DNA of 64,000 bases from assembly GCA_003024785.1 (NCBI GenBank), contig PUQB01000061.1, positions 62,001 to 126,000 on the forward strand, written 5' to 3'. Below, in pieces: positions 2,942-64,000 of this stretch; position 1 is the first letter of the stretch, and every line of letters begins with the position of its first letter. Both the position numbers and the translations under genes were made by a program. Under the pieces are notes generated by a model. The model saw only the letters and a list, made by a program, of their open reading frames with translations. It had not been told where the DNA came from and made no database searches. This DNA comes from Selaginella tamariscina (Eukaryota; Streptophyta; Lycopodiopsida; Selaginellales; Selaginellaceae).

Positions 2942-3001
<60 letters not shown>

Positions 3002-3761
3002 TGAGAGATGATAACTTTTATCCTCGCATGTACGGATATGTACATATATTTAGAGTTCACAATATCAATAAACAATTATTTAAACGTGTGTAATGCGTGG
3101 AGAGAGAGAGAGGTTAAATAACACAAGATATTTTTAATATGTTGATGTTGAAGCTCAAAATATATATGGTTCTATTTATATATATAAATAGAGAGAGGAC
3201 TCACGTAAAGAATGAGTATGATTATTGTTGATAATTAAACCGTATTTCACTAATTAAAAAGCAATTCTTATCTTTATAAAACTGATAAACAATAATATAA
3301 ATCGTGTGAGTTTCAAAAGAGTATATACCATTTTTTAAAAAGGTTACTCATTAAATATTATAAAAGTATTAAACAAACTATATAGTACAAACAAGAATAT
3401 TGTAAACCTATATATTGTAAATTAGATTGTCGTTTATTTTAGAAGTTTTCATTACATTGTAATATCAAAGTTAAGAAGTTAAATTGATTATGTAAGTTTA
3501 ATATTTACATGTAACCATGTATAGATCTGCACATATACACGTGTAAATTCAAAGAATTATGTGTGTCTGTATAGTAAATTAGATCCTGATGAAACTAATT
3601 AGCACGTATCAAACATAACTGAAAAATTATTATTCACTATTTTACATATAATTAAATAAATTACTATATTTACATCATAAAATCAATTTAAATATTTAAT
3701 TTAAATAACTTTATAGTTTAAACACAATATAAAAGTCTCAACATTAAATTAGACTTCCGGT
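246..3761. other. AT-rich intergenic DNA with scattered microsatellites
   Basis: I see no gene here. Notable points are a (CACACG)n-like run at about 2263-2308, a (GT)n(GA)n compound run at 2942-2998, an (AT)n run at 1669-1683 and short GA runs at 2371-2387 and 3099-3112. Short open frames overlap these repeats or AT-rich DNA and have no recognisable domains. Confidence 0.7.
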
Positions 3762-33499: not shown

Positions 33500-36445
33500 T
33501 TATCCTCCCCTCTGCGGTTGTGTAGATGGTGATGGATCTGATGGTCCTGGATCCGTGTGAGCTGGGCCATCTAAGGTATGACCGAATGTAGTCAACGAGT
33601 CTCGAACGACAAACCGTTTCATTCGAACTACGTGAACTATCTCAACCTCATGAGATCCCACCAACTGTACTGATACACCTGAGGACCAACCTTTCGGAGT
33701 ACTCGGTAGGGACCAAGCCACTTATGTAATAAACCAGTTGCAAGCCCAGGTGCATCAGCTTGGGAAAACGTACCAGTACTAAGTCACCGTCAGCATAGTC
33801 TGGTGGAATTTGATGTCGTGCATTGTAAGAAGATTGTTGCTGTATTTGAGCTCGACCAAGATGTTCAGCAGACTCTGCACGCAGAAGAGGCAAGACAGCA
33901 TCCAAATGTCGAGCCCACATTTTGCATCCTCGGCACGTGGCAGATTCGATGATAATCCCAATTCACTAGGCAACTTAGGATCATATCCATACAATGCCTT
34001 GAATGGAGAGATACCAATCGAACTCTGAATGCCTGTTACATAAGCAAATCTCAAGCATCGCAAATACCAATCCCAGTCAGTGTGATTGAAGTTCACATAC
34101 TTCGAGATCATACCCTTGAAGGTCCGATTCAATCGCTCCACCAAACCATCAGTTTGTGGATGATATGGAGAGGCAAATGAGTGTTTTACCCCTAACCTCT
34201 CACACAACACTCGGAATACCTCTGCAATGAAAGCGGGGCCATTATCTGATAACATCCGCTCTGGACAAGAATGCTGCAAAACCACATTATCGAACAAAAA
34301 CAAAGCTGTTGACATGGCAGTTGCATCCGGAAGAGCACCAACCTCCACCCAACGAGTTAAATAATCAGATACGACAATGATGTACTGGTTACCTTGAGAA
34401 GAACGTGGAAAAGGTCCCATTAAATCCACTGCAATTAACTCAAAAGGGCGAGAGACATTGATGGATTTAACACCCCCATGGCCCGAGTCGTAGAGGAATT
34501 CCGAGTTTGACAAATGGGACAGCTTTGAATATACCTGATCACATCACCACGCATGCTGGCCAATAAAAGGATCTGCGGAGCTTCTCCAACACTCGTTGGT
34601 GACCAAGATGACCTCCAACAATAGGCGAATCATGATATGCTCGAAGAAGGTGTGGAACATATGTAGAGGGCACAGCCAAACGCCATCTGTCTCTGGATTT
34701 GTCCCAATAAAATACAATAAACCATCCTGAAGTCGAAACTGAGCATGATATTGTCGAAACCGAGGTTCGGAAGAGGATTGCAAACGCATCCGTAATTGCC
34801 TCGTCCACGGTTCATTTTTGGCATCCTGCCACTGTTCCAAGGATGGTAAGTCGGCATCGAATACCTGAGGGGCTTGTATCAAACCGAATGCTGCAGCGAC
34901 TGCATGAGCAGGCAAAGTGGAATCAGAAAGGGGTGCTCGAGAAAGTGCATCCGCATCCACCATTGTTCGCCCAGGCCTGTGCACCACCTTAAAGTTATAT
35001 ACTTGGAGACGTAATGCCCATCTGGCTACACGACCCACTAAATTCTTCCGTTTTAATAAGGAAGTGACAGCAGCATGATCACACTCCAAAAGTGTTTCAC
35101 TCCCATGTAAGTAGGCATGAAGTCGTTCAAAACCCCAAACAGCAGCAAGGCATTCTTTTTCAGTAGTGGAATAATTCCGCTCAGCCGGCGTGAGTACTCG
35201 ACTAATGTAAGCCACCGGGTGTCGAATTGAAGAATCCACAGCATCAGTTTGCATCAATACACCACCAATACCAACATCTGAGGCATCTACTCGTAAAATG
35301 AACGGACGAGTAAAATCTGGGTATTGAAGCAATGGTGGAGTTGTCAGGAACTCTTTTAACTGGTCAAATGCCTGCTGACACCTGCGAGTCCACCTGAAAG
35401 ATACCTGTGGACGAACTAACTCCCGAAGAGGGGCAGTTCGATCAGTGAGATGATCGATGAATCGACCCAAGTACTGCACCGTGCCCAAGAAACGCTGGAC
35501 TTCCTGTACTGTAGGGACGAGGGAACTCTCGAACAGCTCGCAACTTCATTGGATCCACCTGTAAACCCTCTCGAGATATACGGTAACCCAAGTAAGTGGT
35601 GTCGGTCGAACCAAACACACACTTTTCAAGTTTCAACTTCAGGCCAACTTCTCGAAATCGATCAAGAACGCGCCGTACATCACGAATGTGATCCTCCCAA
35701 GAACCAGACCCATGAATGAGCACATCGTCGATAAAATCGGCAGTGATATCAGGCATATCGGAAAGAAGCTCATCCATCATGCGTTGAAAGGTGGCAGGAG
35801 CTGAAGTCAATCCAAAAGGCATGACCAAAAACTCGTAAAGACCAAATGGTGTCCGGAAGGCCGTTTTTGGAATATCCTCCTCAGCCATAGGAACCTGCCA
35901 ATATCCTGATGCCAAATCCAACTTAGTAAACCATCGACTCTGACCCAAACGATCTAATAGATCGGCAGAGTTCGGAAGTGGATAGACATCTTTGATGGTA
36001 ACATCGTTAAGAGGTCGGTAATCCACACAAAATCGGAGAGATCCATCAGGCTTGGGAACCAAATGAGGTTCACATGCCCATGGACTCCGTGACGGACGAC
36101 ACACTCGTTTACCAATCATATCAGTAACAGCTGTTCGCATGGCTGATAACTCCTTTGGTGACCTGCGTCGAACCGGGACTTTGAAAGGCTTTGCATTGCC
36201 GTGGGTATACAGTGTCGAGTCTTCACACGTGCACCTTGGGACAGATCAAATTTGAACAAACTTGCATACTGTTTCTTAAGTTGTTCGATGCAGTGTGCTC
36301 GACACTCAGGTGACGGATCCGGCATTTGAACCTGTTGAGATGAACACCACCCCAAGACCGGAATCAAAGGAGCTGTATGCGTGATACAAACAGCAACAAG
36401 CTTCTCTGGACGTAAAGGAACAGACTGCAAAGACACAGACTCCAA
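33500..36445 (-). pseudogene. Pol polyprotein of element 2, frameshifted
   Basis: Minus-strand frames read in order give the reverse transcriptase (36140-35442: DYRPLNDVTIKD, PLPNSADLLDRL, TKLDLASGYWQ, MPFGLTSAPATFQRMMDE; the usual YLDD reads FIDD here), RNase H (RVDASDVGIGGVLMQ) and a zinc-finger region (HLGHQRVLEKLRRSFYWP). An integrase core follows (VDLMGPFP, LSDNGPAF, DGLVERLNRTFKGM). At least four frame changes separate the pieces, near 35500, 34570, 34500 and 33930. The end at 33500 is the polypurine tract (AGAGGGGAGGATAA on the minus strand). Confidence 0.88.
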
Positions 36446-36860
36446 GCGTAATACAGGAGGAGAGAGTGAAAAATCACATACCTTTCGACTGCTTTAACCA
36501 ATCACATCCCAGAATGATGTCAAAGACCTGGGAAGGGACAACCCTAAGAGACCCAGAGGGAAACTTACATTGGCACCCATAACCAGCGTAGTCGAAGTGG
36601 TGTACTGTGATACTGCACGAGACTGCCCATTACCATATAAAATGTGCAAGACCTTATCTGCACGTCTTAAGGGTAATGAGCACCGATGCGCTAGAGAAGT
36701 AGTTATGGAAGACATACTGGATCCTGTATCCACAAGCACTGTGACTGAAAGATCATTCACTCGTGCAGAAAATGTGAAAACTGGATGATCTGGTGGAACT
36801 TGCAAACCTTGATATGCATAGCGGAAAAAAGCATGGAGGTGAAGTCTCCATCGCACGGGA
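36446..36860 (-). pseudogene. Protease region of element 2
   Basis: Retropepsin-like segment with the catalytic motif in VTVLVDTGSSMSSITTSLAH, followed by LHILYGNGQSRAVSQY. Unlike in element 1, the Asp-Thr-Gly is present. A frameshift follows the LLGLSLPRS stretch. Confidence 0.75.
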
Positions 36861-37948
36861 TCCCTCCGTCGCCCGTACGATTACTGGTTTTCCGCAACAG
36901 ATCCACCTGCAAGAGAGGCTTCTCATCTGGAAGCTCATCATCAGACATAATGGCCGCCACAGGCACACCATCCGGAACATATGGTCGCCAGCCTGGATGT
37001 GGTGGACGCCAATCAGGATACACATCGCATGCCCGCCAAGTATGTCCAGGTGCCCAACAGGCCCAACAATGAACTTGATTGGGTCGACCTGCATTGTTCC
37101 GATTCCTCCTGTCACGAATCCGTGGATTTTGACCACCACGGGCAGGAACTGGAGCAGGTGCAGGACGATTTCGTGGAGGTGGTCCACGGGGTGGGCCCCG
37201 AGGTCGACCAAAAGGCTTGTCGTGCGGGCACATATGCAGCAGCATCAACCTCCATTGGATCAGCACGCTGAAAAGAGGAGCAGGTAACCCAAGGGGAACA
37301 CGGCCCTCACCAGGCACCAACTCAAAACGTTGAGCTAGTGCAAAAGCTTCCTCCAATGTGGTAGGACGAAGAGCCCGAATGAATCGAACAAGTTCGGGTC
37401 GCATAGTTGGCCATAACATACCGAGCTTAATGGGCTCAGGCATGTTAGGATATGCACGCCGAACTAAATCCCCGAACCTAATACTGAACCGCATAACAGA
37501 CTCACCAGGATCGCATGCAGTTGTTGGAAAGCATCATCTGAATCCTCAACTTTGCCAAACGTACGTTTGAGGCATTCCGTTAACCGATTACTATTGGCTT
37601 GAATCTCCGCAGCCAATCCATTATACCACTTGAGCGCAGGGCCTTCCAAACATGTAGGGAATTCTCTGAGAGCACGGGCCTCATCCCAACCATGGTAACG
37701 AACAATGACTTGGAAATGATCAAACCAGTGGTATACATCATCTCCCGGATCACCACAAAAAGATCGGGGTCGAACCCTCGGATTTGTGGCCTGTGAAGAA
37801 GATGAAGGAGTACTAGAAGCAGATCCCCCGGCATGAGGCTCAGCGGGGAAGAGGAGGACGGACCCTCAACAAAGCGCTCCAACAACTTAGTTTGTGCATC
37901 AATAGCAGTAGCAATAATGCTAAAAGCCGTCTCCATATTCATTGTCAT
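36757..37948 (-). pseudogene. Gag and zinc knuckle of element 2, frameshifted
   Basis: The start MTMNMETAFSIIATAIDAQT at 37948 matches that of element 3. The gag domain continues as ALKWYNGLAAEIQA, SDDAFQQLHAI and LGMLWPTMRPELVRFIRAL, through frame changes near 37640 and 37490. A CCHC knuckle follows (CWACWAPGHTWRAC) and then a Pro-rich segment leading to the protease. Confidence 0.85.
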
Positions 37949-37972
37949 GAAAAAAAAAAGGAAAAAGGAATA

Positions 37973-37988
37973 CCCAACTTCTCCACCA
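37973..37988 (-). promoter_or_regulatory. Primer binding site of element 2
   Basis: TGGTGGAGAAGTTGGG on the minus strand, one base after the LTR end; almost identical to the sites of elements 1 and 3. Confidence 0.65.
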
Positions 37989-37989
37989 A

Positions 37990-38179
37990 TGAAAGAGCAG
38001 ATATATATTAAATGTCAGATTATTAGCTACAAAAACCCTGCTTATATACAGGAGACCTCCTGCCACGTGGCACACATGCGACACTGACACATGGGCCAGA
38101 TCACCACCCATGTGTCACTACGCATGTGTGTATATACACATGCTATATACATTATGTTACATAATATACAATATCTTAA
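37990..38179 (-). repeat. 5' LTR of element 2
   Basis: Ends in TTTCA on the minus strand, one base before the primer site, as in element 3. The outer end has lost the clean TGTAAG start (atatcttaaa here). It contains a small palindrome, gtgtatatacac. Confidence 0.8.
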
Positions 38180-38454
38180 AAATTCTTTAATTTAAATTAA
38201 GGGTTAATACGAATTCAAAACCCTTAACTCTTATGTGTAAATTAAGTTAAGGAGTGGTGTAAAACTACCTATACTTATTTTAAAAATATGGCTATAAATT
38301 AATTCATATCTGATTTATAACGGGGTAAGGGTGGCCATCAAGTACATTAAGCTTGTCGTACTTATTTAAATACACGGCAGCATATAAATTAATACTACTC
38401 TTGCTATATTTATGTTTTCACCCAGGCATTTACTGGAAGGGAGGTCCGTTAAAT

Positions 38455-42058: not shown

Positions 42059-42590
42059 TTACACGAGTAATTGCTTTACATACAAAGGATTTGCCTATTG
42101 TGCATCTATAAACGAAAGAAAAAATGACAAAATCTACAAGGAAAGAATATATCTAAACAATGGAAAAACTAGATTTAGGAAGACAAAGAAGATTTAGAAA
42201 AAAGACACAAATCCAAGCACTCCGTAGTGATAATTAAAGGTGCCCAACATCTCTACCATGTGAGAGCTCGGAATATAGAAATGTGTACATCTCATTAGTT
42301 CAAATACATTAACTTATATATGAGAGCGAGTGGTCTAGATTAAAACCAATCCAACGGTTATTAAAACTCACTATGCTAGTAATAGTATGTGCACATGGAT
42401 ATTACCAAGTGGTATTTATTAAATTTCTCATTACATATAATGCTCACATATATATTTGTAAGTACTTAGCTTTTAAAATTAAAATAACGTAGCCTTTGAT
42501 TTAAATTCGTCAAGTATTTTTCTTTTTTCTCTATAATATTTCTAATCCCAATGGTAAGTTTAAAATAAATTCCAATATATATTTTAGTAT

Positions 42591-42797
42591 TGTAAGATAC
42601 TGTATATTATGTAATGTAATGTATATACGCATGTGTATATACACACATGTGTAATGACACATGGGTGGTGATCTGGCTGCCATGTGTCAATGCCATGTGT
42701 CGCATGTGTGCCACGTGCAGGAGGTCTCTTGTATATAAGTAGGGTTTTTGTAGCTGAATATATTTGACATTTCTGAATATATATATCTGCTCTTTCA
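42591..42797 (+). repeat. 5' LTR of element 3
   Basis: 207 bp from TGTAAGATACTG to CTCTTTCA, TG...CA ended, matching the LTRs of element 2 (blocks gtgtatatacac, gtgccacgtg, gtagggtttttgtagctg). Confidence 0.88.
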
Positions 42798-42798
42798 T

Positions 42799-42814
42799 TG
42801 GTGGAGAGGTTGGG
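42799..42814 (+). promoter_or_regulatory. Primer binding site of element 3
   Basis: TGGTGGAGAGGTTGGG, one base after the LTR end. Confidence 0.65.
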
Positions 42815-42849
42815 TATTCTTTCTTCCGCCTTTTCCTTTTCTTGTTTCC

Positions 42850-43900
42850 ATGATAACGAACATGGAGACGGCTTTTAGCATTATTGCTACTGTTATTGAT
42901 GCACAAACTAAGTTGTTGAAGCGCTTTGTTGAGGGTTCATCCTCCTCTTCCCCGCCTGAGCCTCATGCCAAGGGATCTGCTTCTAGTACTCCTTCATCTT
43001 CTTCACAGGCTACAAATCCGAGGGTTCAACCCGATCTTTTTGTGGTGATCCGGGAGATGATGTATACCACTGGTTTGATCATTTTCAAGTTATGTTTGTT
43101 ACCATGGTTGGGATGAGGCCCGTGCTCTCAGAGAATTCCCTACATGTTTGGAAGGCCTTGCGCTCAAGTGGTATAATGGATTGACTGCGGAGATTCAAGC
43201 CAATAGTAATCGGTTGATGGAATGCCTCAAACATACGTTTGGCAAAGTTGAGAATTCAAATGATGCTTTTCAACAACTACATGCGATATGACAACATCCT
43301 GGTGAGTCTGTTATGCGGTTCAGTATTAGGTTCGGGGATTTAGTTCGACATGCATATCCTAACATGCCTGAGCCCACTAAGCTCGGTATGTTATGGCCAA
43401 CTATGCGACCTGAACTTGTTCGATTCATTTGGGCTCTTCGTCCTACCACATTGGAGGAAGCTTTTGCACTAGCTCAATGTTTTGAGTTTGCCTGGTGAGG
43501 GCCGTGGTCCCCTTGGGTTACCTGCTCCTCTTATTCAGTGTGCTGATCCAATGGAGGTTGACGCTGCTGCATATGTGCCCACCTTTCGTGGTCGACCTCA
43601 AGACCCACCCTGTGGATCACCTCCATGAAATCGTCCTGCACCTGCTCCAGTTCTTGCTTGTGGTGGTCAAAATCCACATATTCGTGACAAGAGGAATCGG
43701 AACAATGCAGGTCGACCCAATCAAGTTCATTGTTGGGCTTGTTGGGCCTGGACATACTTGACGGGCATGCAATGTATATCCTGATTGGCGTCCACCACAT
43801 CCAGGCTGGCTATATGTTCCGGATGGTGTGCCTGTGGCGGCCATTATGTCCGATGATGAGCTTCCAAATGACGAAGCCTCTCTTGCAGATGGATTTGTTG
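42850..43900 (+). pseudogene. Gag region of element 3, frameshifted
   Basis: The start METAFSIIATVIDAQTKLL is nearly identical to that of element 2. The gag domain continues through frame changes and a stop (LVRHAYPNMPEPTKLGMLWP, RPTTLEEAFALAQ). The zinc-knuckle region (about 43725-43770) is shifted, and one Cys-containing segment is altered (VHCWACWAWTYL-like instead of the CX2CX4HX4C spacing). Confidence 0.8.
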
Positions 43901-43959
43901 CAGAAAACCAGTAATCGTACGGGCGACGAAGGTATCCCGTGTGATGGAGACTTCACCTC

Positions 43960-46105
43960 CATGCTTTTTCCGCTATGCATATCAAGGTTTGCAAGTTCCA
44001 CCAGATCATCCAGTTTTCACATTTTTTGCACAAGTGAATGATCTTTCAGTCACAGTGCTTGTGGATATAGGATCCAGTATGTCTCCCATAACTACTTCTC
44101 TAATCCAGTATGTCTTCCATAACTACTTCTCTAATCCAGTATGTCTTCCATAACTACTTCTCTAGCGCATCGGTGCTCATTACCCTTAAGACGTGCAGAT
44201 AAGGTTTTGCACAGATCCATTTTCTGCACAAGTGAATGATCTTTCAGTCACAGTGCTGTGGATACAGGATCCAGTATGTCTTCCATAACTACTTCTCTAA
44301 TCCAGTATGTCTTCCATAACTACTTCTCTAATCCAGTATGTCTTCCATAACTACTTCTCTAATCCAATATGTCTTTCATAACTACTTCTCTAGCGCATCG
44401 GTGCTCATTACCCTTAAGACGTGCAGATAAGGTTTTGCACATTTTATATGGTAATGGGCTGTCTCGTGCAGTATCACAGTACACCACTTCGACTACGCTT
44501 TTGGGTAACAATTGTAAGTTTCCCTTTGGGTCTCTTAGGGTTGTCCCTTCCCAGGTCTTTGACATTATTCTGGGATGTGATTAGTTGAAGCAGTCGAAAG
44601 GTATGTCTGATTTTTCACTCTCTCCTCCTGTATTAGGCTTAGAGTCTGTGTCTCTGCAGTCTATTCCTTTATGTCCAGAGAAGCTTGTTGCTATTTGTAT
44701 CATGCATATAGCTCCTTTGATTCCAATCTTAGGGTGGTGTTCATCTCACTTCGACTACGCTGGTTTTGGTGACAATTATAAGTTTCCCTTTGGGTCTCTT
44801 AGGGTTGTCCCTTCCCAGGTCTTTGACATTATTATGGATGTGATTAGTTGAAGCAGTCGAAAGGTATGTGTGATTTTTCACTCTCTCCTCCTGTATTAGG
44901 CTTGGAGTCTGTGTCTCTGCAGTCTATTCCTTTACGTCCAGAGAAGCTTGTTGCTATTTGTATCATGCATATAGCTCCTTTGATTCCAATCTTAGGGTGG
45001 TGTTCATCTCACTTCGACTACGCTGGTTTTGGGTGACAATTGTAAGTTTCCCTTTGGGTCTCTTAGGGTTGTCCCTTCCCAGGTCTTTGACATTATTCTG
45101 GGATGTGATTAGTTGAAGCAGTCGAAAGGTATGTGATTTTTCACTCTCTCCTCCTGTATTAGGCTTGGAGTCTGTGTCTCTGCAGTCTATTCCTTTACGT
45201 CCAGAGAAGCTTGTTGCTATTTGTATCATGCATATAGCTCCTTTGATTCCAATCTTAGGGTGGTGTTCATCTCAACAGGTTCAAATGTCGGATCCGTCAG
45301 TAAGTTTCCCTTTGGGTCTCTTAGGGTTGTCCCTTCCTAGGTCTTTGACATTATTCTGGGATGTGATTGGTTGAAGTAGTCGAAAGGTATGTTGATTTTT
45401 CACTCTCTCCTCCTGTATTAGGCTTGGAGTCTGTGTCTCCTCCTGTATTAGGCTTGGAGTCTGTGTCTCTGCAGTCTATTCCTTTACGTCCAGAGAAGCT
45501 TGTTGCTGTTTGTATCTTGTTGCTGTTTGTATCATGCATACAGCTCCTTTGATTCCAATCTTGGGGTGGTGTTCATCTCAACAGGTTCAAATGTCGGTCC
45601 AGAGAAGCTTGTCGGGTTCAAATGTCGGGTCCAGAGAAGCTTGTTGGTGTTCATCTCAACAGGTTCAAATGTCGGGTCCAGAGAAGCTTGTTGCTGTTTG
45701 TATCATGCATACAGCTCCTTTGATTCCAATCTTGGGGTGGTGTTCATCTCAAGAGGTTCAAATGTCGGGTCCAGAGAAGCTTGTCGGGTTCAAATGTCGG
45801 ATCCAGAGAAGCTTGTTGGTGTTCATCTCAACAGGTTTAAATGTCGGGTCCAGAGAAGCTTGTTGCTGTTTGTATCATGCATACAGCTCCTTTGATTCCA
45901 ATCTTGGGGTGGTGTTCATCTCAAGAGGTTCAAATGTCGGGTCCAGAGAAGCTTGTTGGTGTTCATCTCAACAGGTTCAAATGTCGGGTCCAGAGAAGCT
46001 TGTTGCTGTTTGTATCATGCATATAGCTCCTTTGATTGGAATTGGGGTGGTGTTGAGATTGATTGGAATTGGGTGGTGTTCATCTCAACAGGTCCAAATG
46101 TCGGA
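43960..46105 (+). repeat. Protease region of element 3 with nested tandem duplications
   Basis: Three kinds of tandem copy are stacked. (1) A 31-bp unit (ccagtatgtcttccataact core) repeats at 44070-44165 and again at 44268-44390. (2) A unit of about 262-264 bp, with gagtctgtgtctctgcag at 44641, 44904, 45168 and 45456, repeats about four times. (3) Shorter units built from gtccagagaagcttgttg and gttcatctcaacaggttc repeat at 45480-46090. The protease motif reads VDIGSS in the first copy, so the Thr of DTG is lost. Confidence 0.85.
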
Positions 46106-52081: not shown

Positions 52082-52322
52082 GCAGTATGCCAGTTTGTTC
52101 AAATTTGATTTGTCCCAAGGTGCACGTGTGAAGACTAACACATATACCCACTAGCAATGCAAAGCCTTTCAAAGTCCCAGTTCGACGCAGGTCACTAAAA
52201 GAGTTATCAGCCATGCAAACACCTGTTACAAATAATCGGTAAGCGGGTGTGTTGTCCATCACGGAGTCCATGGGCATGTGAACCTCATTTGGTTCCCAAG
52301 CCTGATGGATCTCTACGATTTA
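52082..52322 (+). mobile_element. Element 3, right part (start of pol), truncated
   Basis: The sequence cagtatgccagtttgttcaa to gatggatctct matches the minus strand of element 2 at about 36050-36280 (QYASLFKFDLSQGARVKT). It is therefore the continuation of element 3 after element 4. It breaks off at about 52322, where the duplicated 3' part of the phosphatase-like gene begins. Confidence 0.85.
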
Positions 52323-53160
52323 TGCACGTTGTAACTAAAGTGGGCATGATATGTGAAAATGGGAATATAAAATAAATTACTAATTAATACTTAAGTTTTA
52401 ATTATCAATTAATCATTTAATTAATATATAATTAAGCCTTAAATATTAATTAATTAATTAATCCTTCAATAACCTTACTTAGTAAGGAATATTCCTAAAC
52501 TATCTTAGAATATTCATATATTTTATAAATAGTTTACAATAATGAAGAAATACTATCAAACATAATTACAAATGAAATCATTTCCTTATCAACATGTTAA
52601 TTTATTTATAAATACTTTCTTCCTAACCATACAGAGAAATCTCCTCATTTTGTCTAATAATCACTCTCCGGATTAATCAAATCATTTTGGTCAATATCTT
52701 GATGTTGTTGCCACCACCTAACACTCTCACGAATGCAATTGGGAGTTGCCATCCTTATTAATACATAAGATGTAATAAGACCAGGTCTGCATAAAGGCTC
52801 ATCTAAAAAATGACGTTCTTTAAGAATAATATTATAAAGTACCGGTTGCTATCCTTCATTTTATAAAATTCAAAATCACGAGAAAGAAAAGCTTTAGGAA
52901 ATGTATGATACGGTGGATACTGCTCACAAAATTTTGAGATTCTTCTTTCTGAGGCACGTATCCAAGTAGTTCACTAGTTATCGGTATCAGAATAGGATCG
53001 AAAGTGGGATGAATACAAGCAATGTTTTGGTTGAGCATAGCCTTCTGAGGAGAGTCGTCTACTACTAAGATATGTGCATTCTTCATTATCCTTAAGCGAT
53101 TGATCTCCCCATGAGTCCCAATTGTTCTTTCATTCTTGAAGAAGTATGGCTTGCTTTCCT
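52320..53160 (-). pseudogene. Truncated tandem copy of the phosphatase-like gene 3' part
   Basis: It begins ttatgcacgttgtaactaaa, as does the next copy at 53158, and carries the same 3' exon in decayed form (VVDDSPQKAMLNQNIACIHP, with missing bases downstream). It ends within ESKPYFFKNE at gcttgctttccttt, where the sequence jumps to the start of the next copy. There is no N-terminal part, so it cannot encode a full protein. Confidence 0.88.
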
Positions 53161-53450
53161 TTATGCACGTTGTAACTAAAGTGGGCATGATACGTGAAAA
53201 TGGGAATATAAAATAAATTACTAATTAATACTTAAGTTTTAATTATTAATTAATCATTTAATTAATATGTAATTAAGCCTTAAATATTAATTAATTAATT
53301 AATTAATCCTTCAATAACCTTACTTAGTAAGGAATATTCCTAAAATATCTTAGAATATTCATATTATTCTAAAAATAGTTTACAATAATGAAGAAATACT
53401 ATCAAACATAATTACAAATGAAATCATTTTCTTATCAACATGTTAATTTT

Positions 53451-54620
53451 TTATAAATACTTTCTTTCTATCATACAAAGAAATCTTTTCATTTTGTCTA
53501 AATCATCACTCTCCGGATTAATCAAATCATTTTGGTCAATATCTTGATGTTGTTGCCACCACTTAACACTCTCACGAATGCAATTGGGAGTTGCCATCCT
53601 TGTTAATACATAAGATGTGATAAGAGAAGGTCTGCATAAAGGCTCATCTAAAAACTGACGTTCCTTAAGAATAATATTATAAAGCGCCCGGTTGCTATCC
53701 TTCATTTTATAAAATTCAATATCACGAGAAAGAAAAGCTTCAGGAAATGTATGATACGGTGGATACTGCTCACAAAAATTTTCGAGATTCTTCTTTCTGA
53801 GGCACGTATCCAAGTAGTTCACTAGCTCATCCATGATATCGGTATCAGAATATGGATCGAAAGTGATTGGATGAATACAAGCAATGTTTTGGTTGAGCAT
53901 AGCCTTCTGAGGAGAGTCGTCTACTACTAAGATATGTGCATTCTTCGTTATCCTTAAGCGACTGATCTCCCCATGAGTCCCAATTATTCTTTCATTCTTG
54001 AAGAAGTATGGCTTGCTTTCCTTTCTTATATTGTGAAATTCGAGAGGTTTATAACATTCGCTGGTCAAAAATCCAATCTTTACGAATCACCTCTTCTGCA
54101 ACACTACAATGTTTCTTAAGTAAATTCAACAGCGGTGTTAAGTTATGAATCTGCATGCATGACCAAATCCCCACAAGCGCACCCATCTCCTTAAGCTTTT
54201 GAAAGAGACGATCCAACCCTGGACGAAAAATAATATCATATCGAAATTTACCATGACAAGGAATGAAATCTCCTTGTTTGATTTCTTTTTCTATCCTCGG
54301 GCCTTTGTCGATGAAGCAGAACACCATTGACATCCAACAACACAATATGGCCATGAGTAACATGAGATAGCGTTGCCTCTTGAATACTTTGCAAATCACT
54401 TGTTTGCTCCCTTTCACATTTATCCGTTGCCACTATCGTTGCCTATCCCTTCATCATTTAATTGTACATCATCCTTACAAGATTCAGATATTGCATGCGC
54501 TGAAGAAATTGATTTCGGAACTGAAGCCAATAAAAATGATGATGCAAAAACTGAAGTGGCCCCCATGGTAACGATGTTTTGAGCTGCATTATTATCCATT
54601 TCCTGCATGAACTCTGTCAT
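53451..54620 (-). CDS. FCP1/NIF-type phosphatase-like protein (HAD superfamily), frameshifted
   Basis: Such proteins are Mg-dependent phosphatases related to those acting on the RNA polymerase II C-terminal domain. A likely start is MTEFMQEMDNNAAQ at 54620. After a Ser-rich N-terminal part, motif I reads VLLDVNGVLL, where canonical enzymes have DxDxT. Then come GKFRYDIIFRPGLDRLFQKL, MGALVGIWSCMQ, KDWIFDQ, YKPLEFHNIRKESKPYF and motif III in ILVVDDSPQKA, then PPYHTFPEAF. The second Asp of motif I is Asn, so normal catalysis is doubtful, though DxNG variants occur in plant members. Frameshifts lie near 54435, 54310 and 54057. It is followed by a truncated tandem copy of its 3' half and lies in the same direction as the ParB-like gene. 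Confidence 0.75.
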
Positions 54621-54903
54621 TCTGACATGTGGCACAAGAAATTGTCGCCAAACCCCTCTCTTACCTCATGGCAATGCTGAAAATCCATGTTCTCAATTAT
54701 TTCATTACATCTGCAAAATGATAATTAGCTGACCTTAAAATTATCAAGGTATATTATTTACCTTGTTAATGTGTGACCCATGTTTGAACTAAAAGCTTCA
54801 TTAATCCTTGAGAATTTATTTTCTGTACAAATATAAAAGAAATATACAAAAATGCCTTATGTTACACTCATTTACAACTATTCATCACTCTATCAATTCA
54901 TTA

Positions 54904-57900
54904 TCAATTCTTCTTCGCTATTACCTTCTGATGAGGCGAAGAAGGTCTAAGCCGCTTGTGAGATGGTTCAAGATCTTCTGCATCTTCTATTGATGTTTCC
55001 ATGGGTCCTGGAGTGTGCGAATGTTCTGTACTCCTCGAGATAACTTCCGGTCTAATATCTGATTGTTCGTTCTCAGACTCCGAGATTGAACCAGATTCAC
55101 CTTCAGAGCTATCGCACTTATCTGGAGGGAACTTTCTCAAATACGCCTTTATGGATCGTTGGGGTACTCAGTTGAGACCCAATCTATCCACTTGTTCAGG
55201 TCCTCAACCATGGTCTTATCCTTTTCAACGGCAAACACACATGTATGCCGAAGGTAACACTCCTTCAAGACGGACCCCCTAGTGCAGTAGTCAAAAACCC
55301 ACGCATCACTGTGAGGACCCCTGATCAAGTTGACGATGCTCCGTGCCGCTTGACTTGTAATGTTTGGATAACGTACATTGCCGAATACGTCACTCATACC
55401 TATCGGTGTATCGGATGGAGGTTCAGGGCCGTTGGAGTGCAAACAGATGCCTGGCCAGTCATTTGGAAGCTTGAAATTGTTTGGCGCATTCCTAACAACC
55501 AAGTGAACAACAGTATCAATGCACTTGGGATTAGCATCGTTCATATAAAATCCTGTCCAACGATGTCTATTCTTCTTGGCGAAGGCGAAGGCAAAAGTAT
55601 CGGTGACATGAGCAAGAATCAAGAAATAAATACCTGAAAAAGTAGGTATCAGTGAAGAGCGCAAGCATGAATTCAATAATAAATACCTTCTATGTATATG
55701 CTTGCACGGCTAAGTTTCTCCACCAGATCCTCTAGTGCCCTATCTGTCGAAAGATTTTTTGACACCCGCCGATCCATCACGAACAATTGAAACGGTTTCC
55801 TACAAGCAGTGATGTTACCCCATAAAGTCTCCGAATCTAACAACAAACATCTGTAGGGCTTGTCGTGATTCGTAGCATCCTCCTTTATAAGGTTCAATTC
55901 GGTTCTCCGCTGCTGAAGGACTGCCATAAGAGAAGGCGTCATCCCAATGTTCTCCTTTTTGGCGTTGGCGTGCAATAGATTCTTGCCAGATCTTCCGATT
56001 GGTTCACCCATTCGACAAGCATATCATCGTTCGTCACATGCAAATATTTGCTGACCTCTTCATATGTTGAAGTCGAGGTCCAACCCAGTTTGTGGCAGTG
56101 TATTCCCAACCACTCCTTGAAATGCCTGACCGTCTTCAACTCCATTGCCTTGAGATGAAAAGGAGAGGTTGGGCTGCTGTTATTAATTTGTAGTTTGCCA
56201 TCGATCACCAAATCAGCCAAGACTTCCATCTCCTCCATCGTTGTTCCATTTAAAGGCTTCAACCATGTGAGCTTGAAATCGTTGTCTACATCCTTTGTAG
56301 ATTGAACAGACTTAGCCTTCGGCGTCTTACTGGGTTTCTTTGCAGACTTTTCTGAGGGCTCCCCTTCACTTGTCTGCTTCTTCTTCAGTGTTCCTTTTGA
56401 AAAGGATTCCATAATCCCCAACCATTTGGCAAAGATCCTATCTTCGGGGCAAGAAATCAACATCATCAGAAATGATGTTTCCTTCCCGCCCACCTGGGCA
56501 AAATCAACTGCTGCAATTTCTTCAACTCTCTGAGGAAAAAGACAGATTAATATACCGGCGAGATAAATCCCGCCCAAACAATTTGCTTACCCGGTATTCC
56601 GCAGATTGTGTATTCCCTGCGGTAGCTCTTTGTGGTCGCTGAAGAGATTCCCACACGGCTCGCGTGTGTTTAAACTTCTCCCATATTTTGCTGTTGTAGT
56701 GGTTGGTGTCGGCAGCGTCCCATTCCGCCGATAACTTATGGTACTGCTCGATTGTGAGATTCGGCTTAGCTAAAAACGCCGATCTTTTTGTCAGCTTCTC
56801 ACGGGTATGCTCGGAAAGTTTTGTTGCCATCGTTCCTTTGTTGTGTTCATCGAGAAGTCGTTGGGCTGCCGTTATTGTGTGCTGGCCACTAATGATGTAG
56901 TACTTGATAGATCTTTTATTCTCCGTCTGAATCTTCATGAGTTGTTCTGGTGTTGTGATCCAGACTTTGTCAGCACCCTTCCTTCTTTCATAGTATGGAC
57001 ACAAAACAGCATTATGTGGAACGGTATAAGAATTGTCGTCCTTCATCTTCTCCATGAGCTCAGCTACACGTTCCTGGTTGAGTGGCCTGTAATTGAAGTT
57101 TGGGTTGACGCTGCAATATTTAACCCTACAAGGATAAATCTTATCATCCAACATCATTTCCTTGTGACTTATTGCAGCATGAGATGCCACAGGTGCAGCT
57201 GACAAAACGATTGATGATTTTCTTTTGCGATCCGAATCAACATGTGTGATCCCCGACTGCAGCTGTTCTAGTGTTCTCGGCACACTCTTCCAGCTCCCGA
57301 AGCTTCCTAAGCAAATTGAACGTGATCTGTAGAGAACCTGAGACCGAGCCACCCTCTCAATCTCCTTATGATGTCGCTGTGTTCTTCTTCAATGTGAAGA
57401 GGGAAGATTGCTCCACTTGCTGATTTTCTGTATTGTGAAGCAATATCTCCTGACAATACACCTACTCGATGAGTCTGAAGATCTTCGAAGTAGACATCCA
57501 GATGGATCCCCTCCATAGATGGGCTTTCGTTGAGTTGAAGAAGAACTCCAAGGTCAACATCATTAGTGAACACGTGAACGTCATTATCCACAAGTCGACA
57601 AAACCACCCGAATTAATGTTGTAACTGACGACCTCTGGATCCGAGAACGTGACATTGGATGGAACAAGGCATATCTGTCGAGCATCGTCCAATCTGGGTT
57701 CGCAGCCTGCTTTCGGGTGCTTGACTAGCGAATCTACTTTCCATTGTTTTGCTTGTCCATGAGATGTGACAGAGGTTAATTTGACAGCACCATGGTTGCT
57801 CCAATGCGCTTCCCATTTATCTTAAAATATGGCCAAGTTGATTCCAGAATCCCCCTGCCCATCTCTTCTCCTGCTCTTGTCTTTAATGTCCTCAATTCCA

Positions 57901-57987
57901 CATCTGAATACAAAAATGATTAGTTCAAGTATCCGAGTATAACAGATTTTATTTTAATTCTTACCCAGAATTTGACGACGACTCCAT
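54904..57987 (-). CDS. ParB-like domain joined to a DNA-methyltransferase-like domain
   Basis: About 970 residues from four exons (57965-57987, 56591-57903, 55687-56529, 54904-55633). The start MESSSNSG at 57987 is the first Met after a GT-AG candidate upstream. The ParB/sulfiredoxin-type domain (about 57115-56750) has YRPLNQERVAELMEKMKDD and IISGQHTITAAQRLL. A Lys/Ser-rich linker follows (GEPSEKSAKKPSKTPKAKS). The C-terminal part looks like an amino-methyltransferase in permuted order: a CLLLDSETLWG stretch where DPPW is expected, then the SAM-binding-like VFDYCTRGSVLKECYL and FAVEKDKTMVEDL. It ends in an acidic tail with a basic HKRLRP. Frameshifts lie near 57600, 57330, 55982 and 55160, and an in-frame TAA near 57827. 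ParB-methylase fusions are known in phages and bacteria; the family assignment is inferred by motif. Confidence 0.65.
55634..55686 (-). other. ParB-like gene intron 3 (53 nt)
   Basis: GTATTTATTATTG...CTTTTTCAG on the minus strand; the exon after it begins with the same GTATTTATT, so the two ends are short direct repeats. The splice joins SRASIYIEG to IYFLILAHVTD. Confidence 0.75.
56530..56590 (-). other. ParB-like gene intron 2 (61 nt), carrying a palindrome variant
   Basis: GTAAGC...TTTCCTCAG on the minus strand; the splice joins SAEYR to RVEEIAAVDFA in frame. The intron contains GGGCGGGATTTATCTCGCCG, a two-mismatch copy of the palindrome that forms the arrays at 58.3-59.6 and 63.2-64.0 kb. 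Confidence 0.8.
57904..57964 (-). other. ParB-like gene intron 1 (61 nt)
   Basis: GTAAGAATT...TGTATTCAG on the minus strand; canonical borders. Confidence 0.65.
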
Positions 57988-58129
57988 ACTAATGACTCGA
58001 TCTCCTTGTTTGATCAAATCGTCCTTCTGCAAAATAATACACTATAAATATAAATTATATAAAAACGCACACACACTTGTATAAACCCGAATATACAAAA
58101 ATAATACACAGAGAGAAGTAGACGTAATT

Positions 58130-58216
58130 AACTGTCCGAAGCTCACATTTGTGTTAGTGCAAAAGAAAGATAACATTTCGTTTTAGAACCACCACAAATG
58201 TGAGCTCTGGACAGTT
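58130..58216. repeat. Short inverted repeat with a 22-bp stem
   Basis: ctgtccgaagctcacatttg at 58132 is matched in inverse by caaatgtgagctctggacag ending at 58214; about 20 of 22 bases pair, with a loop of about 39 bases. It may be a small hairpin transposon remnant or a structured transcript. Confidence 0.75.
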
Positions 58217-58324
58217 TTACATAGATTCCTAGCTTTTACTCGAAATATTATGATAAGATGATAAAAGTAAATAAAATGAGATATGCAACTTATATATACT
58301 AATACACATATATATTCACATGGA

Positions 58325-59640
58325 AGGTGCGGCGGGATTAATCTCGCCACCCCTTCAATGCCTCCTGAAAGAGTGGGCGGGATTAATCTCGCCACCTTTC
58401 TGGAGGCCTTGAACGGGAGTGCGGAATTAATCTTGCCACCCTTCTCGGTCTCAGAGAGAACTGGGCAGGATTTATTTCTCACACCCCTTCAGTGACTCCA
58501 GAAAGGAGGCGGGATTAATCTCGCCCACCATGTAAGGGATGGTTAAATGAATTCCCACCCTTCCCAGTCTCTCCATTGGTATGTTGTAAACCTTCTACGT
58601 CTCAGACAGAAACGTTTGGGATTGGTCCGACTCACCAATGGAGAAAAAAGGAAGGGTGGCGGATTCATTCTCCAACAGGCATTGAAGACTCGGCGGGATT
58701 AATCCCGCCGCCCAGGGCCTTCACTCGTCCCTATGCGGCGGGATTAATCCCGCCGGACGCCAATTCCCTGCGCGGAATCGGGCGGGATTAATCCCGCCGC
58801 CTAGGCACTTCAGCAGGCCAATGGCGGCGGGATAAATCCCGCCCGATTCCGGCAGGGCATGCGTCGGCGGGATTAATCCCGCCACCATGTAAGGGATGGT
58901 GAAATTAATCCCACCACCCTTCTCGGTTCCCTCCATTGGTATTTTGTAAACCTTCTCCGTCTCAGACAGAGTTAGTCGGGATTGATTCAACATACCAATG
59001 GGGTAATGAAGGTTCGGAGATTAATCTCGCCACCGGGTAATGAAGGTTCGGAGGCTAATCCCGCCGCCCTCTCGTAAATCATGCGCTCACACATATATAT
59101 TGGCTGCGGCATTTTTGAACAGGGATGGGTGGGGCGGGATTAATCCGCCGCCCAGGGAATTCACGCAGGACATGAACGGCGGGATTAATCCCGCCGCCCT
59201 CCGCGAAGGGCATGAGCGTGGGGCCGGAAATCCCGCCGTTCATGTCCTGCGTGAATTCCCTGGGCGGCGGGATTAATCCCGCCGCTCTACGACAAACCGA
59301 AGAGCGGCGGGATTAATCCTGCCGCCCATTCCCTGTAAATGCACTGCGCGGAATCCGGCGGGATTAATCCCGCCCATTAGAACCTTCACACAGGCCATTG
59401 CCGGCGAGATAAATCCCGCCGCATTCCGCGCAGGGCATGGATGAGCGGCGGGATTAATCCCGCCGCCGAGGCCCTCACGCAGGCTATGGGCGGCGGGATT
59501 AATCCCGCCGCTCTTCGGTTTGTCGTAGAGCGGCGGGATTAATCCCGCCGCCCATAGCCTGCGTGAAGGGCCTCGGCGGCGGGATTAATCCCGCCGCATG
59601 CCACTCGGCGGCGGGATTAATCCCGCCGCTCGGGGGCTTA
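58325..59640. repeat. Palindrome array A (core GGCGGGATTAATCCCGCC)
   Basis: About 26 copies, of which roughly half are perfect 18-bp palindromes. They are separated by spacers of about 20-50 bp, several of which recur directly or inverted. The left end (58325-58560) holds the more diverged copies (aatctcgcc, aatcttgcc); the right end (59160-59640) holds the purest. Variants often lack one base of the GGG or CCC run. The region is far richer in G+C than its surroundings. Apparent reading frames across it (repeating GGINPA and AGLIPP) are artefacts of the palindrome. Confidence 0.95.
58573..59003. repeat. Two copies of a CCATTGG-ended hairpin segment
   Basis: ccattggtatgttgtaaacc ... caccaatgg (58573-58639) and ccattggtattttgtaaacc ... 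cataccaatgg (58932-59003) share internal tctcagacagag-like sequence. Each has inverted ends (CCATTGGTATGTTG against CAACATACCAATGG). They are interspersed with the palindrome array. Confidence 0.7.
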
Positions 59641-60312
59641 GCGAGATAAAAACACACACATATATATGTGTGTGTGTGTATATATATGTATGTATGTATG
59701 TATGTATAGGAGTGTACGTGTGTGTGCAAGAGATAGATAAATAAATAAACTTATACAGTACTGGTACACCTAATATATGTGTGTACATAGGTATATATAT
59801 GTGTGTATATGTAATATCGTGTGTATGCGTGTGAGCGACAACAAATAAAAATCATACAGATAAACAAACACACACACACACATATATATATACAGGAGTG
59901 TGCGTGTGTGTGCAAAAAGATAAAACTAATAAATAAATAAAATTATACAGATAAACACACACTAATATATGTGTGTATATAGATATATAATCTATAGAGA
60001 AAGAGAAGAGAGTTGTGAATATAAGTATATATAAACTAGTGTTGATGTATGTATATATGTATATAGGTATATATATATGTGTATATTTATATTGTGTGTA
60101 TGCGTGTGTGAGCGAAACAAATAAAATCATACAAATAAACAAACACACACACACACACATATACATACACAGGAGTGTGCGTGTGTGTGCGAGAGATAAA
60201 ACTAATAAATAAATAAAATTATACAGAAAAACACACATATATATATGTGTGTATATTATGAATATATAAGCATATATATAAACTAGTGTATACTATTTGT
60301 TAATATGCATTG

Positions 60313-60384
<72 letters not shown>

Positions 60385-60790
60385 GTAAAGCAGTGCGCGT
60401 GTGTGGGGAGATAGATCAATAAAAAAAAATTTACAGATACTGGTACACATAAATATATATAATATATATATATATGTGTGTTGTGTGTGTGTGGTGTGTG
60501 TGTGTGTGTGTTGTAAAGCAAGATCAATAAAAAAAATTTACAGATACTGGTACACATAATATATGTATGTATATGTATATAGGTATATATATATATATGT
60601 TATGTTATCGTGTGTATGCGTGTGTGAGCGAAACAAATAAATCATACAGATAAACAAACACACACCCACACATATACATACACAGGAGTGTGCGTGTGTG
60701 TGCGGAGATAAAAACTAATAATAAAATTATACGCACACTCCTATACATATAACATACATACACACACACACACACACACAGATCTCACCT
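59641..60790. repeat. Microsatellite-rich minisatellite, unit about 270-280 bp
   Basis: A composite unit recurs about four times in varying length: gtgtatgcgtgtgtgagcga, acaaataaaatcatacagat, a (CA)n run, caggagtgtgcgtgtgtgtg, aactaataaataaataaaat and an (AT)n/(GT)n run. Copies start near 59817, 60092 and 60608, with a partial copy at 59707. A long (AT)n(GT)n run lies at 60315-60381. Confidence 0.8.
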
Positions 60791-61870
60791 GTGTGCACAG
60801 CCGCCGCCGCCGATTTCACAGCCCCGCCTCTTGAAACCCTAAGAATATACCTAAACCCTAAAGGAATTAAATATATATATCAACCCTAATAGAATATTCC
60901 TTCTGAGAATAACTTAAACCCTAAAAAGAATAAAATATAGATTCGCCCTAAACGAATATTCTTTCATTTATATTATTAGCGCGTGCGTGTGTGTGGGTGT
61001 ATCACATACACCTCAAAAATATAAATCATGCAGGGATTTAACATGTGTGTGTCCATGAGAGTGTTAAAGTTCATGTGTAACATTGCATATATTAATACAC
61101 ATAATATATACATACACACGTGTATACACACAGACATACACATATTACATGGGTTTAGGGTTTAGGGTTTAGGGTTTTGGATTTAGGATGGATCATGCAT
61201 GGTGTGTATGTATGAGAGAAGAGAGAGTGTTGAAAAATTATTTTTGTACACATTGCATATATTAGTACACATATATACTTACACAATTATATACACAGAT
61301 ATACATAGTAATAAGAGAAGACAGTACATATTAATATGGATCATGCATGGTGTATTATACACACAGACATACATACATATTAGTACATAATATTAGAGAG
61401 ACCGAGTACATATTATAGATCATGCATGGTGTGTATGTTTGAGAGAAGAGAGACAGTACATATTAACATGGATCATGCATGGTGTGTATGTATGAGAGAA
61501 GACAGAAAGTACACATATATACATACAGAGTACACATATATACATGCACACGTGTATACACACAGACATACATACATATTACATGAGTAAATTCATTGTG
61601 TTACATATTAGGGTTTAGGGTTTGGGTCCCAACAAGCTTAATATAAATATTACACATGTAAATTCAATGTGTTACATATACACAGATTGAGTACATATAT
61701 CATACATGCGTTGAACATGATGTTCAATAAAAGAAGCAACATATTTCTTCAGTTTGGTTAGGGTTGTGCATGTGTGTGCATATGTGTTTTTGTAAGTTCT
61801 TGTAATGCGTGTGTAAATTTATGATTGTGTTTATATATGTGGCAAAACAAACATCGAATAATTAAGAAAA
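60791..61870. repeat. Interstitial telomere-like and satellite-like DNA
   Basis: Plant telomere-type TTTAGGG units occur at 61153-61176 (about three to four in a row) and degenerate forms at 60834-60862, 60908-60925 and 61608-61628. Between them, a phrase gatcatgcatggtgtgtatg followed by tatgagagaagagag recurs four times (61190-61510). No gene seen. Confidence 0.7.
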
Positions 61871-61877
61871 TAAAATT

Positions 61878-62560
61878 AATAAACACACTAGGAACATATT
61901 TTAAATTATACATAATAATATATGATTTTATCTAATATATAGCCATATATAGTTTTAATAATATATATTAATTTAATATTGATAAAAAGGTTTAATTGAA
62001 ATATTCTTGAAATAATAAGAAATTAATTGAGAAAATCCCATTAATATAACAAATGTAAATTAAGTACTCAAATAATTAACTAAATTAATTATCATAATCA
62101 TGTTTAATATTGGAATATTCTTGGAATAATAAGAAAATAATAAAGAATATACCATTAATATAAAGAAGATTAATTACTCAAGTAAGGAAATGAATATATA
62201 TAATATTATTAAAACTATATGACTATATATTAGATAAATGATGTATTATTATGTATAATTTAAAATATGTTCATAGTGTGTATTAATTTAATATTGATAA
62301 TAAGGTTTAACACATGAATATTCTTGAAATAATAACAAATTAATTGAGAAAATCCCATTAATATATAAAGTAGAATAATTACTGCAATAATTAAGAACAA
62401 GACTAATTTAATTATGATCAGGTTTAATATTAGAATATTCTTCAAATATTAATAAAATATTAAAGAATATCCCATTGATACTAGGAAATGAAAACTAAAT
62501 ACTCGAGTAATTAAGAAAATAATAATAATAAACAGACTATGAATATATTTTAAATGATAC
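61878..62560. repeat. AT-rich repeat block with a large inverted repeat
   Basis: The segment with ttttaaattatacataataa near 61905 reappears inverted near 62245 (ttattatgtataatttaaaa) and again directly near 62553. Between them gaaattaattgagaaaatcc and agaatattcttg-type phrases repeat about every 190-200 bp. Confidence 0.7.
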
Positions 62561-62879
62561 ATAATAATATATCAATTTATTTATTGTATAAGTAATATTA
62601 TATATATATATATAATATAAATATACTTGAATACTAAGAATGTAGAATATAGTCTAAAATTTCGTAATATTAAACAGCTTGAATCACTTGAATAACATTA
62701 AATGCAATTTTAAAATACTCATTGGAACTGGAGAGTATATATGTCAGAGTGTCGGATATTTGTCAACTCATCTTAAATTTTATTTTCTGTTCTTTTTAAA
62801 AATTTGAATTTCTGACATATGTATTGTCGGTCTGACATGTAAATTTGAAAATGCATTTAATTTCCCACTCAAATTCAGA

Positions 62880-63031
62880 TCTGGTTCTTTCTCCGGCAAG
62901 GGTTTCTTCATTTCTGTATTTTTTCACTCTTTAGATCTTCTTTTTTCTTCATAGTGATCATCTCAGGAGCGAGATTAAATTGGTGCTATTCTTTATAGGA
63001 AAGCACGGCGCCTTCAGTGCTGTTTACAAGT
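62880..63031 (+). other. Possible first exon of an unrecognised gene
   Basis: After a pyrimidine-rich leader-like stretch (gttctttctccggcaagggt) a short frame ends GKHGAFSAVY just before GTAAGTATT, a strong 5' splice site. The downstream exon is not evident before palindrome array B begins at 63.2 kb. This is a weak call. Confidence 0.25.
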
Positions 63032-63196
63032 AAGTATTATAAACAAATTAAAAATACTTATTAAGATTCACTCTCTTACATTCTCTCTTAAAATTACAAT
63101 TTAGGGGTTTAGAAATGCATTAGGATTATAATATATTCCGTTAGGGATTTATCACGTTTAAATATCCTTTTAACTTAATATTCTAGGTTAACCGGG

Positions 63197-64000
63197 GCGG
63201 CGGGATTAATCCGGCCATTTCTTTTTCGCCTCTTTGAAGAAGTGGCGGGATTAATCCCGCCACCATCTCCCGGGCAATGCTTCTCCGCCACTGAAAAAGT
63301 GGCGGGATTAATCCCGTATAACCTTCTCAACTGATGAAGAGTTACCAGAATTTATTAGAAAGAGTTGTCGGCGGGATTAATCCCGCCAACCATTTTAGGA
63401 GGCAGGGAAGGGGTGGCGGGATTAATCTCGCCACCACTTCACTGTTTTAAAGATTTGGGGACAGGATTTTATCCGAGATCTCTTTGAAATCATAGTTTTG
63501 GAGAGAGTTATGTGCGGGTTTAATCCCGCCACCCATTCCCCGTCGTAAGAATTGTGGCGGGATTAATCCGCCTTGGACTCCCTCCGACAAGGAAGAGCCG
63601 GCGGGATTAATCCCGCCGCCTCTTCCTCCGACGAGGAAGGGAGTCCGGCGGATTAATCCCGCCGACTCTCTCCGGCGAGGATGAGTCGGCGGGATTAATC
63701 CCGCCGGACTCCCTTCCTCGTCGGAGAGAGTCGGCGGGATTAATCCCGCCGGACTCCCCCCGAGGAGGAAGAGGCGGCGGGATTAATCCCGCGGCTCTTC
63801 CTTGTCGGAGGGAGTCCAAGGCGGGATTAATCCCGCCGACTCTCTCCGAAGGGGTTGAGTCGGCGGCGGGATTAATCCCCGGACCCCTTCCTCGTCGGAG
63901 AGAGTCGCGGGATTAATCCCGCCGGACTCCCCGAGGAGGAAGAGGCGGCGGGATTAATCCGCCGGCTCTTCCTTGTCGGAGGAGTCCAAGGCGGGATTAA
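63197..64000. repeat. Palindrome array B (core GGCGGGATTAATCCCGCC), continues past the window
   Basis: About 18 copies in 800 bp; the last is cut by the window end. From 63590 on, copies are spaced regularly every 40-46 bp, with spacers made of cctccgacaaggaagag, ctctccggcgaggatgag and their inverse (ctcttccttgtcggaggga). Left copies are more diverged and lack these spacers. Single-base losses in the GGG or CCC runs are common. Confidence 0.95.

Follow-up and report, generated by a model that had tools for sequence, protein, structure and literature searches.

An 18-bp palindrome arrayed inside a high-copy transposon-like element of Selaginella tamariscina: candidate protein-binding sites

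Introduction

What is a perfect palindrome, repeated in two dense clusters, doing in the genome of a lycophyte? The question arises from a 64,000-nucleotide stretch of Selaginella tamariscina (assembly GCA_003024785.1, contig PUQB01000061.1, positions 62,001 to 126,000; hereafter the window), in which an 18-bp core, GGCGGGATTAATCCCGCC, self-complementary throughout with arms of 9 bp, forms one cluster at 58331-59627 and a second from 63199 to beyond the window end. A preliminary description took the clusters for a stand-alone repeat and suggested a protein-binding site, a recombination site, or hairpin-driven amplification. We find, with very little room for doubt, that they are instead an inner part of a dispersed, high-copy, transposon-like DNA element of 14 to 15 kb. 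Among the earlier suggestions a protein-binding site now fits best: judging from sequence, we put at roughly 0.6 the probability that the arrays are cis-acting sites, the core probably being bound by a dimeric protein beside two divergent gene blocks.

Results

Allowing up to 3 mismatches, the window holds 36 matches to the 18-mer against 0.01 expected, a count reached in none of 100 shuffles, and 18 of the matches are exact, so the clusters first described are real. All but one (35 of 36) fall in the two clusters; the exception, a lone core at 56557-56574 with 2 mismatches, lies about 1.77 kb from cluster 1 and keeps that distance in four other loci (L083, L086, L088, and L092). A looser local alignment recovers 41 core-like units, a unit being one core and one spacer. 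Cluster 1 (58318-59640 as a feature) accounts for 24 of these, between 58331 and 59627, with 12 exact cores. Cluster 2 (63185-64000 within the window) has 17 from 63199 onward, the final one truncated at the window boundary, with 6 exact cores, and continues in the contig to about 64096 in window coordinates (L081 8096). The figure of about 44 copies given earlier stands only if degenerate copies are counted. Neither cluster nor the lone core is assigned a strand.

As had been noted, the clusters are G+C rich in AT-rich surroundings (0.58 and 0.57, versus 0.27 between them and 0.37 in positions 1-58317). The A+T-rich stretch that separates them (59641-63184, no strand) consists of CA/TA microsatellites, duplicated segments, and short TTTAGGG runs and contains no core at up to 3 mismatches. 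The observed-to-expected ratio of CpG is 0.60 and 0.63 outside the cores and 1.04 and 1.11 for the whole clusters, a depletion confined to the DNA between cores. That intervening DNA was said to differ from copy to copy, and the spacers do vary; among spacers of 12-35 nt, however, with 7 longer gaps set aside, 27 of 32 measure 22-28 nt, and they group into families, several of them present in both orientations. Cluster 1 has two exact reverse-complement pairs of spacers and other pairs at 96%. Tandem Repeats Finder calls both arrays as tandem repeats. The proposed grading of copies, from diverged at the outer edges to perfect toward the center or right, is seen in cluster 1, where the four leftmost cores are mutated and the end is perfect, but not in the right part of cluster 2, where perfect and damaged copies are mixed.

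Several simple readings of the core could be set aside. A palindrome longer than 18 bp is contradicted by the flanking bases, since the first pair beyond the core matches in 18 of 32 copies and the next in 12 of 32. Changes in mutated cores are mostly one-sided rather than compensatory, and all six reading frames through the arrays are broken, which argues against coding sequence. The self-complementarity of the arrays would suit transcription into double-stranded RNA that feeds silencing small RNAs, and C-to-T or G-to-A changes at CG/CHG positions make up 11 of the 23 core substitutions counted over 32 of the 41 units, albeit in copies that share ancestry. The arrays match no Rfam family at gathering score, and we consider this reading of the arrays highly improbable.

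To place the clusters in a wider context, we retrieved from the same genome ten further array-bearing loci (L083-L092), the contig sequence beyond the right edge of the window (L081 and L082), and additional element ends. Flanking blocks of the window type lie beside the arrays in all 10 of the other array-bearing loci. Identity between the window's copy and these loci is 94.8-99.5% in the left block (55.0-58.3 kb) and 93.6-97.9% in the right block (65.2-67.9 kb). The shared sequence ends at 53163 on the left side and, in window coordinates, at 67947 on the right side, in each case at a 27-bp terminal inverted repeat (TIR) whose left form, ATGCACGTTGTAACTAAAGTGGGCATG (with T for C at one end), and right form, ATGCAAGTTGTAACTAAAATGGGCATG, differ at 2 of 27 positions. 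The copy in the window thus extends from 53163 to 64000 and on to 67947 in the contig (14,785 bp; L081 and L082; no strand), with its left TIR at 53163-53189 on the plus strand and the right counterpart near 2947 in L082. The same TIR marks the left ends of L093, L096, L097, L099, and L102, besides the window's own (twice), and the right ends of L085, L090, L091, L094, L095, L096, L098, and L100, besides its own; candidate end L103 matches it poorly (6 mismatches), and stretch L101 has none. Five copies with both ends measure 14,785, 14,845, 15,382, 13,788, and 14,798 bp.

Copies are dispersed in differing surroundings and carry inverted repeats at both ends, as DNA transposons do. The window's copy sits within a gypsy-type element, and in a second copy of that gypsy-type element, near 36 kb, the site is free of the insertion. 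Target-site flanks were compared in five copies: the window's own is flanked by ATTT on either side, one C2 copy by TTA, and one C1 copy by TATAT, and no target-site duplication is seen in the C3 copy or the second C1 copy, so that no common length emerges. The 9-bp duplication that is a hallmark of Mutator-like elements was absent from the 14-base flanks of all five.

Some copies show irregularities. Immediately left of the window's copy, and inside the same gypsy-type retrotransposon, is a tandem second left end of about 840 bp (840-865), 94% identical, at 52322-53162 on the plus strand; the duplication as a whole spans 52322-54024 and may be a solo-end or mis-repair product. About 145 bp of the window's copy (65068-65214 in window coordinates; L081/L082) are lacking in other copies. 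Element copies also adjoin or nest in one another: at L085 4221-4222 the right end of a reversed copy abuts the cluster-2 edge of another, and in L096 the right end of another copy (811-2155) lies about 370 bp before the left end at 2521.

The preliminary description held that a genome-wide count at random frequency would speak against it. In the S. tamariscina genome (300,702,823 bp) we found 59,903 sites at up to 2 mismatches to the 18-mer and none for a reversed control pattern. Among the matches listed, the first ones, from three contigs, the sites are grouped as arrays, often paired 3-4 kb apart. With 34 such sites in the window's own copy, the count corresponds to 59,903/34, about 1,760, or roughly 1,800 copies' worth of sites. 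This is of the same order as the candidates raised at first look by a 751-base left-block probe (2,240) and a right-end probe (1,583), which are not confirmed copies and of which only the best 40 per probe were scored. All of the best 40 left-probe candidates are 100% identical; 32, the window's own included, cover the full probe with the top score, and 31 other loci are therefore identical to the window's copy over all 751 bases. Among the best 40 right-end candidates, the 39 others are 94-95% like the window's end, which indicates that this end is itself diverged. Assembly artefact has next to no credibility as an explanation: nearby frameshifts and single-base deletions may be sequencing errors, but the same organization recurs at 11 loci on four contigs.

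The presence of the arrays in all 10 other array loci, in a family of such high copy number, also raises the possibility that the element requires them in cis to move or be copied, for example as transposase or replication sites, rather than for expression. Transposons can carry numerous subterminal binding sites. The clusters, however, lie some 4-5 kb inside the element ends and not near them, and we regard such a role as quite unlikely.

On both sides, reading frames point away from the arrays. To the right of cluster 2 and outside the window, the gene block has a single strong Pfam domain, DUF7869 (PF25273), recognized at 1e-26 in L091 and fragmented in the window's own copy (2e-18 and 5e-06). 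The protein has 47 database relatives, among them three named proteins from the liverworts Calypogeia fissa and Riccia sorocarpa. To the left of cluster 1 and near the element end are pieces of a NIF-type phosphatase frame (53451-54432, minus strand); the corresponding frame in L096 (2812-3756) is whole enough to pass the Pfam cutoff, at 1.5e-07. Between these pieces and the array lies an unrecognized protein gene in pieces of shifting frame (55149-57821, minus strand), part of which is covered in L092 by an open frame of 478 amino acids (1943-3376). In L092 the first core is 378 bp away from the start of this frame; in L091 a stop-to-stop frame of 530 amino acids starts 111 bp past the last core. 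The two frames may be promoter-proximal genes of the element. A resemblance of the left gene to ParB-like or methylase-like proteins found no support in Pfam, PDB sequences, or the protein set. Single-sequence structure models have a mean predicted local distance difference test score of 36.5 and 33.1. In the left block, 100 bp from cluster 1, an 87-nt hairpin (58130-58216) has a predicted RNA fold of -38.1 kcal/mol (z -8.0), a stability that none of 200 shuffles reached; it lies inside a block common to other element copies and has no Rfam match at gathering score.

How the arrays change bears on what maintains the core. Seventeen arrays from about ten copies yield 329 units, 146 of them exact, and when their spacers are named by family, the common ones keep their order and orientation across element copies. 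Blocks of units are gained and lost, and this is seen even where the left blocks of two copies agree at about 99% (the window's own versus L092 and L084). Three spacer types (18, 36, and 37) can be found either way round, depending on the copy, but as they resemble other types these are not clean flips. Because order and orientation are kept between copies, we view the inverted spacers as old features of the element, and with shared spacers conserved in this way the earlier idea of a recombination site is not supported. Local amplification and homogenization, as first proposed, are borne out by the turnover of whole blocks and by a core identity that stays steady as spacers diverge. In cluster 2, two subfamilies have spacers that differ at most positions and a core consensus that is identical over all 18 bases. 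Core identity is 0.91-0.94 regardless of spacer identity: within the window (91 pairs) it is 0.913, 0.932, 0.944, and 0.937 as spacer identity rises (45, 33, 6, and 7 pairs), and between the cluster-2 subfamilies (51 units matched to 58) it is 0.932, 0.918, and 0.936 at spacer identities of 0.748, 0.844, and 0.938 (21, 24, and 6 units).

Either selection on a site or repair among cores could keep the core constant. The second possibility underlies the explanation that we rank next after binding sites, although we think it unlikely: the arrays would be functionless palindromic minisatellites carried by the element, in which hairpins and template switching would duplicate units, turn some of them around, and restore mutated cores from their neighbors. 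Any two adjacent cores and the spacer between them make up an inverted repeat whose arms are 18 bp long, and DNA folding of 58675-59640 and 63185-64000 gives z values of -31 and -28, with none of 20 shuffles as stable. The longest exact self-matches in cluster 1 are inverted (59, 42, and 40 nt, versus 28 nt direct). In cluster 2, strict alternation of orientation fits 36 of 45 spacer pairs, with 6 misfits and 3 ties, and neighboring spacers are inverted in 6 cases, direct in 2, and tied in 1. Yeast offers a precedent, in which arms are homogenized and spacers inverted (PMC8604942). Yet between element copies we see gains and losses of blocks and no flips; a core stands at all four ends in only 2 of the 33 inverted exact matches that reach 22 nt; cluster 2 has direct matches (32 and 31 nt) that equal the inverted ones (33 and 30 nt) in length; and the same consensus occupies the arrays on both sides of the 3.5-kb middle. 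The reading of the arrays as a stand-alone minisatellite ordered by template switching was abandoned in part: the genome count and the retrieved loci place the arrays in the element, no spacer is cleanly flipped between copies, and the mechanism survives only in the rival described here.

Discussion

We favor cis-acting sites for two reasons: the core consensus and its position are the same in different subfamilies and to either side of the middle part, and arrays of this kind are already known from plant transposons, as in the published description of VANC21 (PMC5735166). The layout comprises an A+T-rich middle, one array to each side, and an outward-reading gene block beyond each array. A dimeric DNA-binding protein, encoded by the element or by the host, would sit on the 18-bp palindrome and act on both divergent gene blocks, for example to sustain expression of the element or keep it from being silenced. 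A row of many such sites would make binding strong and specific, as it does for VANC proteins on their motif arrays. Through duplication and loss of blocks the arrays expand and contract, and the spacers drift, while the core is kept. A bolder version, which we put forward only tentatively, is that of a multisite platform with about 30 dyads per element, in which the two arrays flank a central divergent control region and a dedicated dimeric factor protects or activates the element genome-wide.

Several points weigh against the binding of a protein to the core. No DNA-binding Pfam domain passes the cutoff among the frames scanned, which leaves no candidate core-binding protein there. Where spacers are closest, cores show no greater likeness than the spacers themselves (0.937 versus 0.962 in the window and 0.936 versus 0.938 between subfamilies), and hence single cores do mutate while the consensus lasts. 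The units were picked by core likeness, which favors conserved cores, and the pairs compared are not independent. Finally, homogenization of arms by template switching, known in yeast (PMC8604942), gives a constant palindrome without function.

Among known systems, the VANC-target arrays of Arabidopsis VANDAL elements come closest, in that they likewise combine a short constant motif and fast-changing tandem repeats with a large high-copy DNA transposon (PMC5735166 and PMC10398659). VANC21 is described as binding a 9-bp motif carried by tandem repeats that lie both inside the genes of its element and upstream of them (PMC5735166). In the S. tamariscina element, too, a short constant motif is dense in noncoding tandem repeats of a transposon. 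The VANC motif, however, is 9 bp long and in a single orientation, with palindromes unmentioned in the portions of these papers at hand, and the core here is an 18-bp perfect palindrome. We recognized no VANC-like protein, and antisilencing, which belongs to the VANC systems, could apply here only by analogy.

Other plant repeats share parts of this architecture. FARE is reportedly a foldback/Mutator-like element with long modular inverted ends. MuTAnT, also of the foldback/Mutator-like kind and likewise with long modular inverted ends, is another plant DNA element with inverted and modular repeats (PMC4486113). Unlike either, the present element has TIRs of 27 bp and palindrome arrays 4-5 kb inside them, and no mudrA-type transposase was found among the frames scanned, which are not all of its frames. 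The short interrupted repeat cassettes (SIRCs) of Arabidopsis combine short repeats with diverse spacers, as the arrays do, and the authors tie them to mobile elements; 211 SIRCs contain palindromes with arms of 4-9 bp, a range that includes the 9-bp arms of our core, and 57% of SIRC repeats are palindrome-free (PMC10342631). The same authors filter out tandem repeats with other software, in contrast to the tandem calls that our arrays receive from Tandem Repeats Finder.

Regularly spaced, clustered palindromes tied to a mobile element also recall the bacterial interspersed mosaic elements (BIMEs) of REP sequences, which are polar imperfect palindromes associated with the RAYT transposase and in these respects unlike the plant arrays (PMC2817692 and PMC3733652). 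The window has plant-type genes (FAE1/KCS and F-box) in a 300.7-Mb genome, and no RAYT was found among the frames scanned. The 18-mer itself occurs in one IMG/VR contig and in 49 stretches of the GTDB collection, and the surroundings of all 50 were read. Some of these copies have gtag/ctac ends like those of tagged REPs (PMC3733652). A bacterial or viral origin was rejected, because these matches are lone palindromes in differing flanks. No stretch holds more than 2 exact copies (L012, whose contig carries a third at L041); the inner 10-mer has 2-3 copies in three other loci of the set, and no two exact cores lie 10-40 bp apart in the IMG/VR or GTDB collections. In two Bacteroidales-type bins (L013, L022, L026, L027, L033, L035, L037, L039, and L050; and L021, L023, and L049) the 18-mer forms part of a repeated element whose palindromic flanks are longer, and mostly lies close to the ends of the loci. 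The 18-mer was not found in the literature searched, in which no search was directed at the element or DUF7869; the inner 12-mer occurs in one published listing.

Some 60,000 copies of one 18-bp palindrome are thus spread over 300 Mb, with a single element family in every place examined, and the palindrome is kept amid changing surroundings. If the core is a binding site, one factor would mark roughly two thousand loci simultaneously, and a protein binding the dyad is the prediction that follows. How high-copy plant transposons escape silencing is an open question outside a few Arabidopsis cases. The element also provides a mobile setting with defined ends for the gene of a DUF7869 protein, a family to which Pfam gives no function, and may help to find the role of the domain.

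Other features of the window

Farther to the left, an inverted pair of repeated segments (36311-38181 and 42590-45299, 91-94% identical) lies beside gypsy-type pieces, and a 263-bp tandem array occupies 44485-45439, near this pair.

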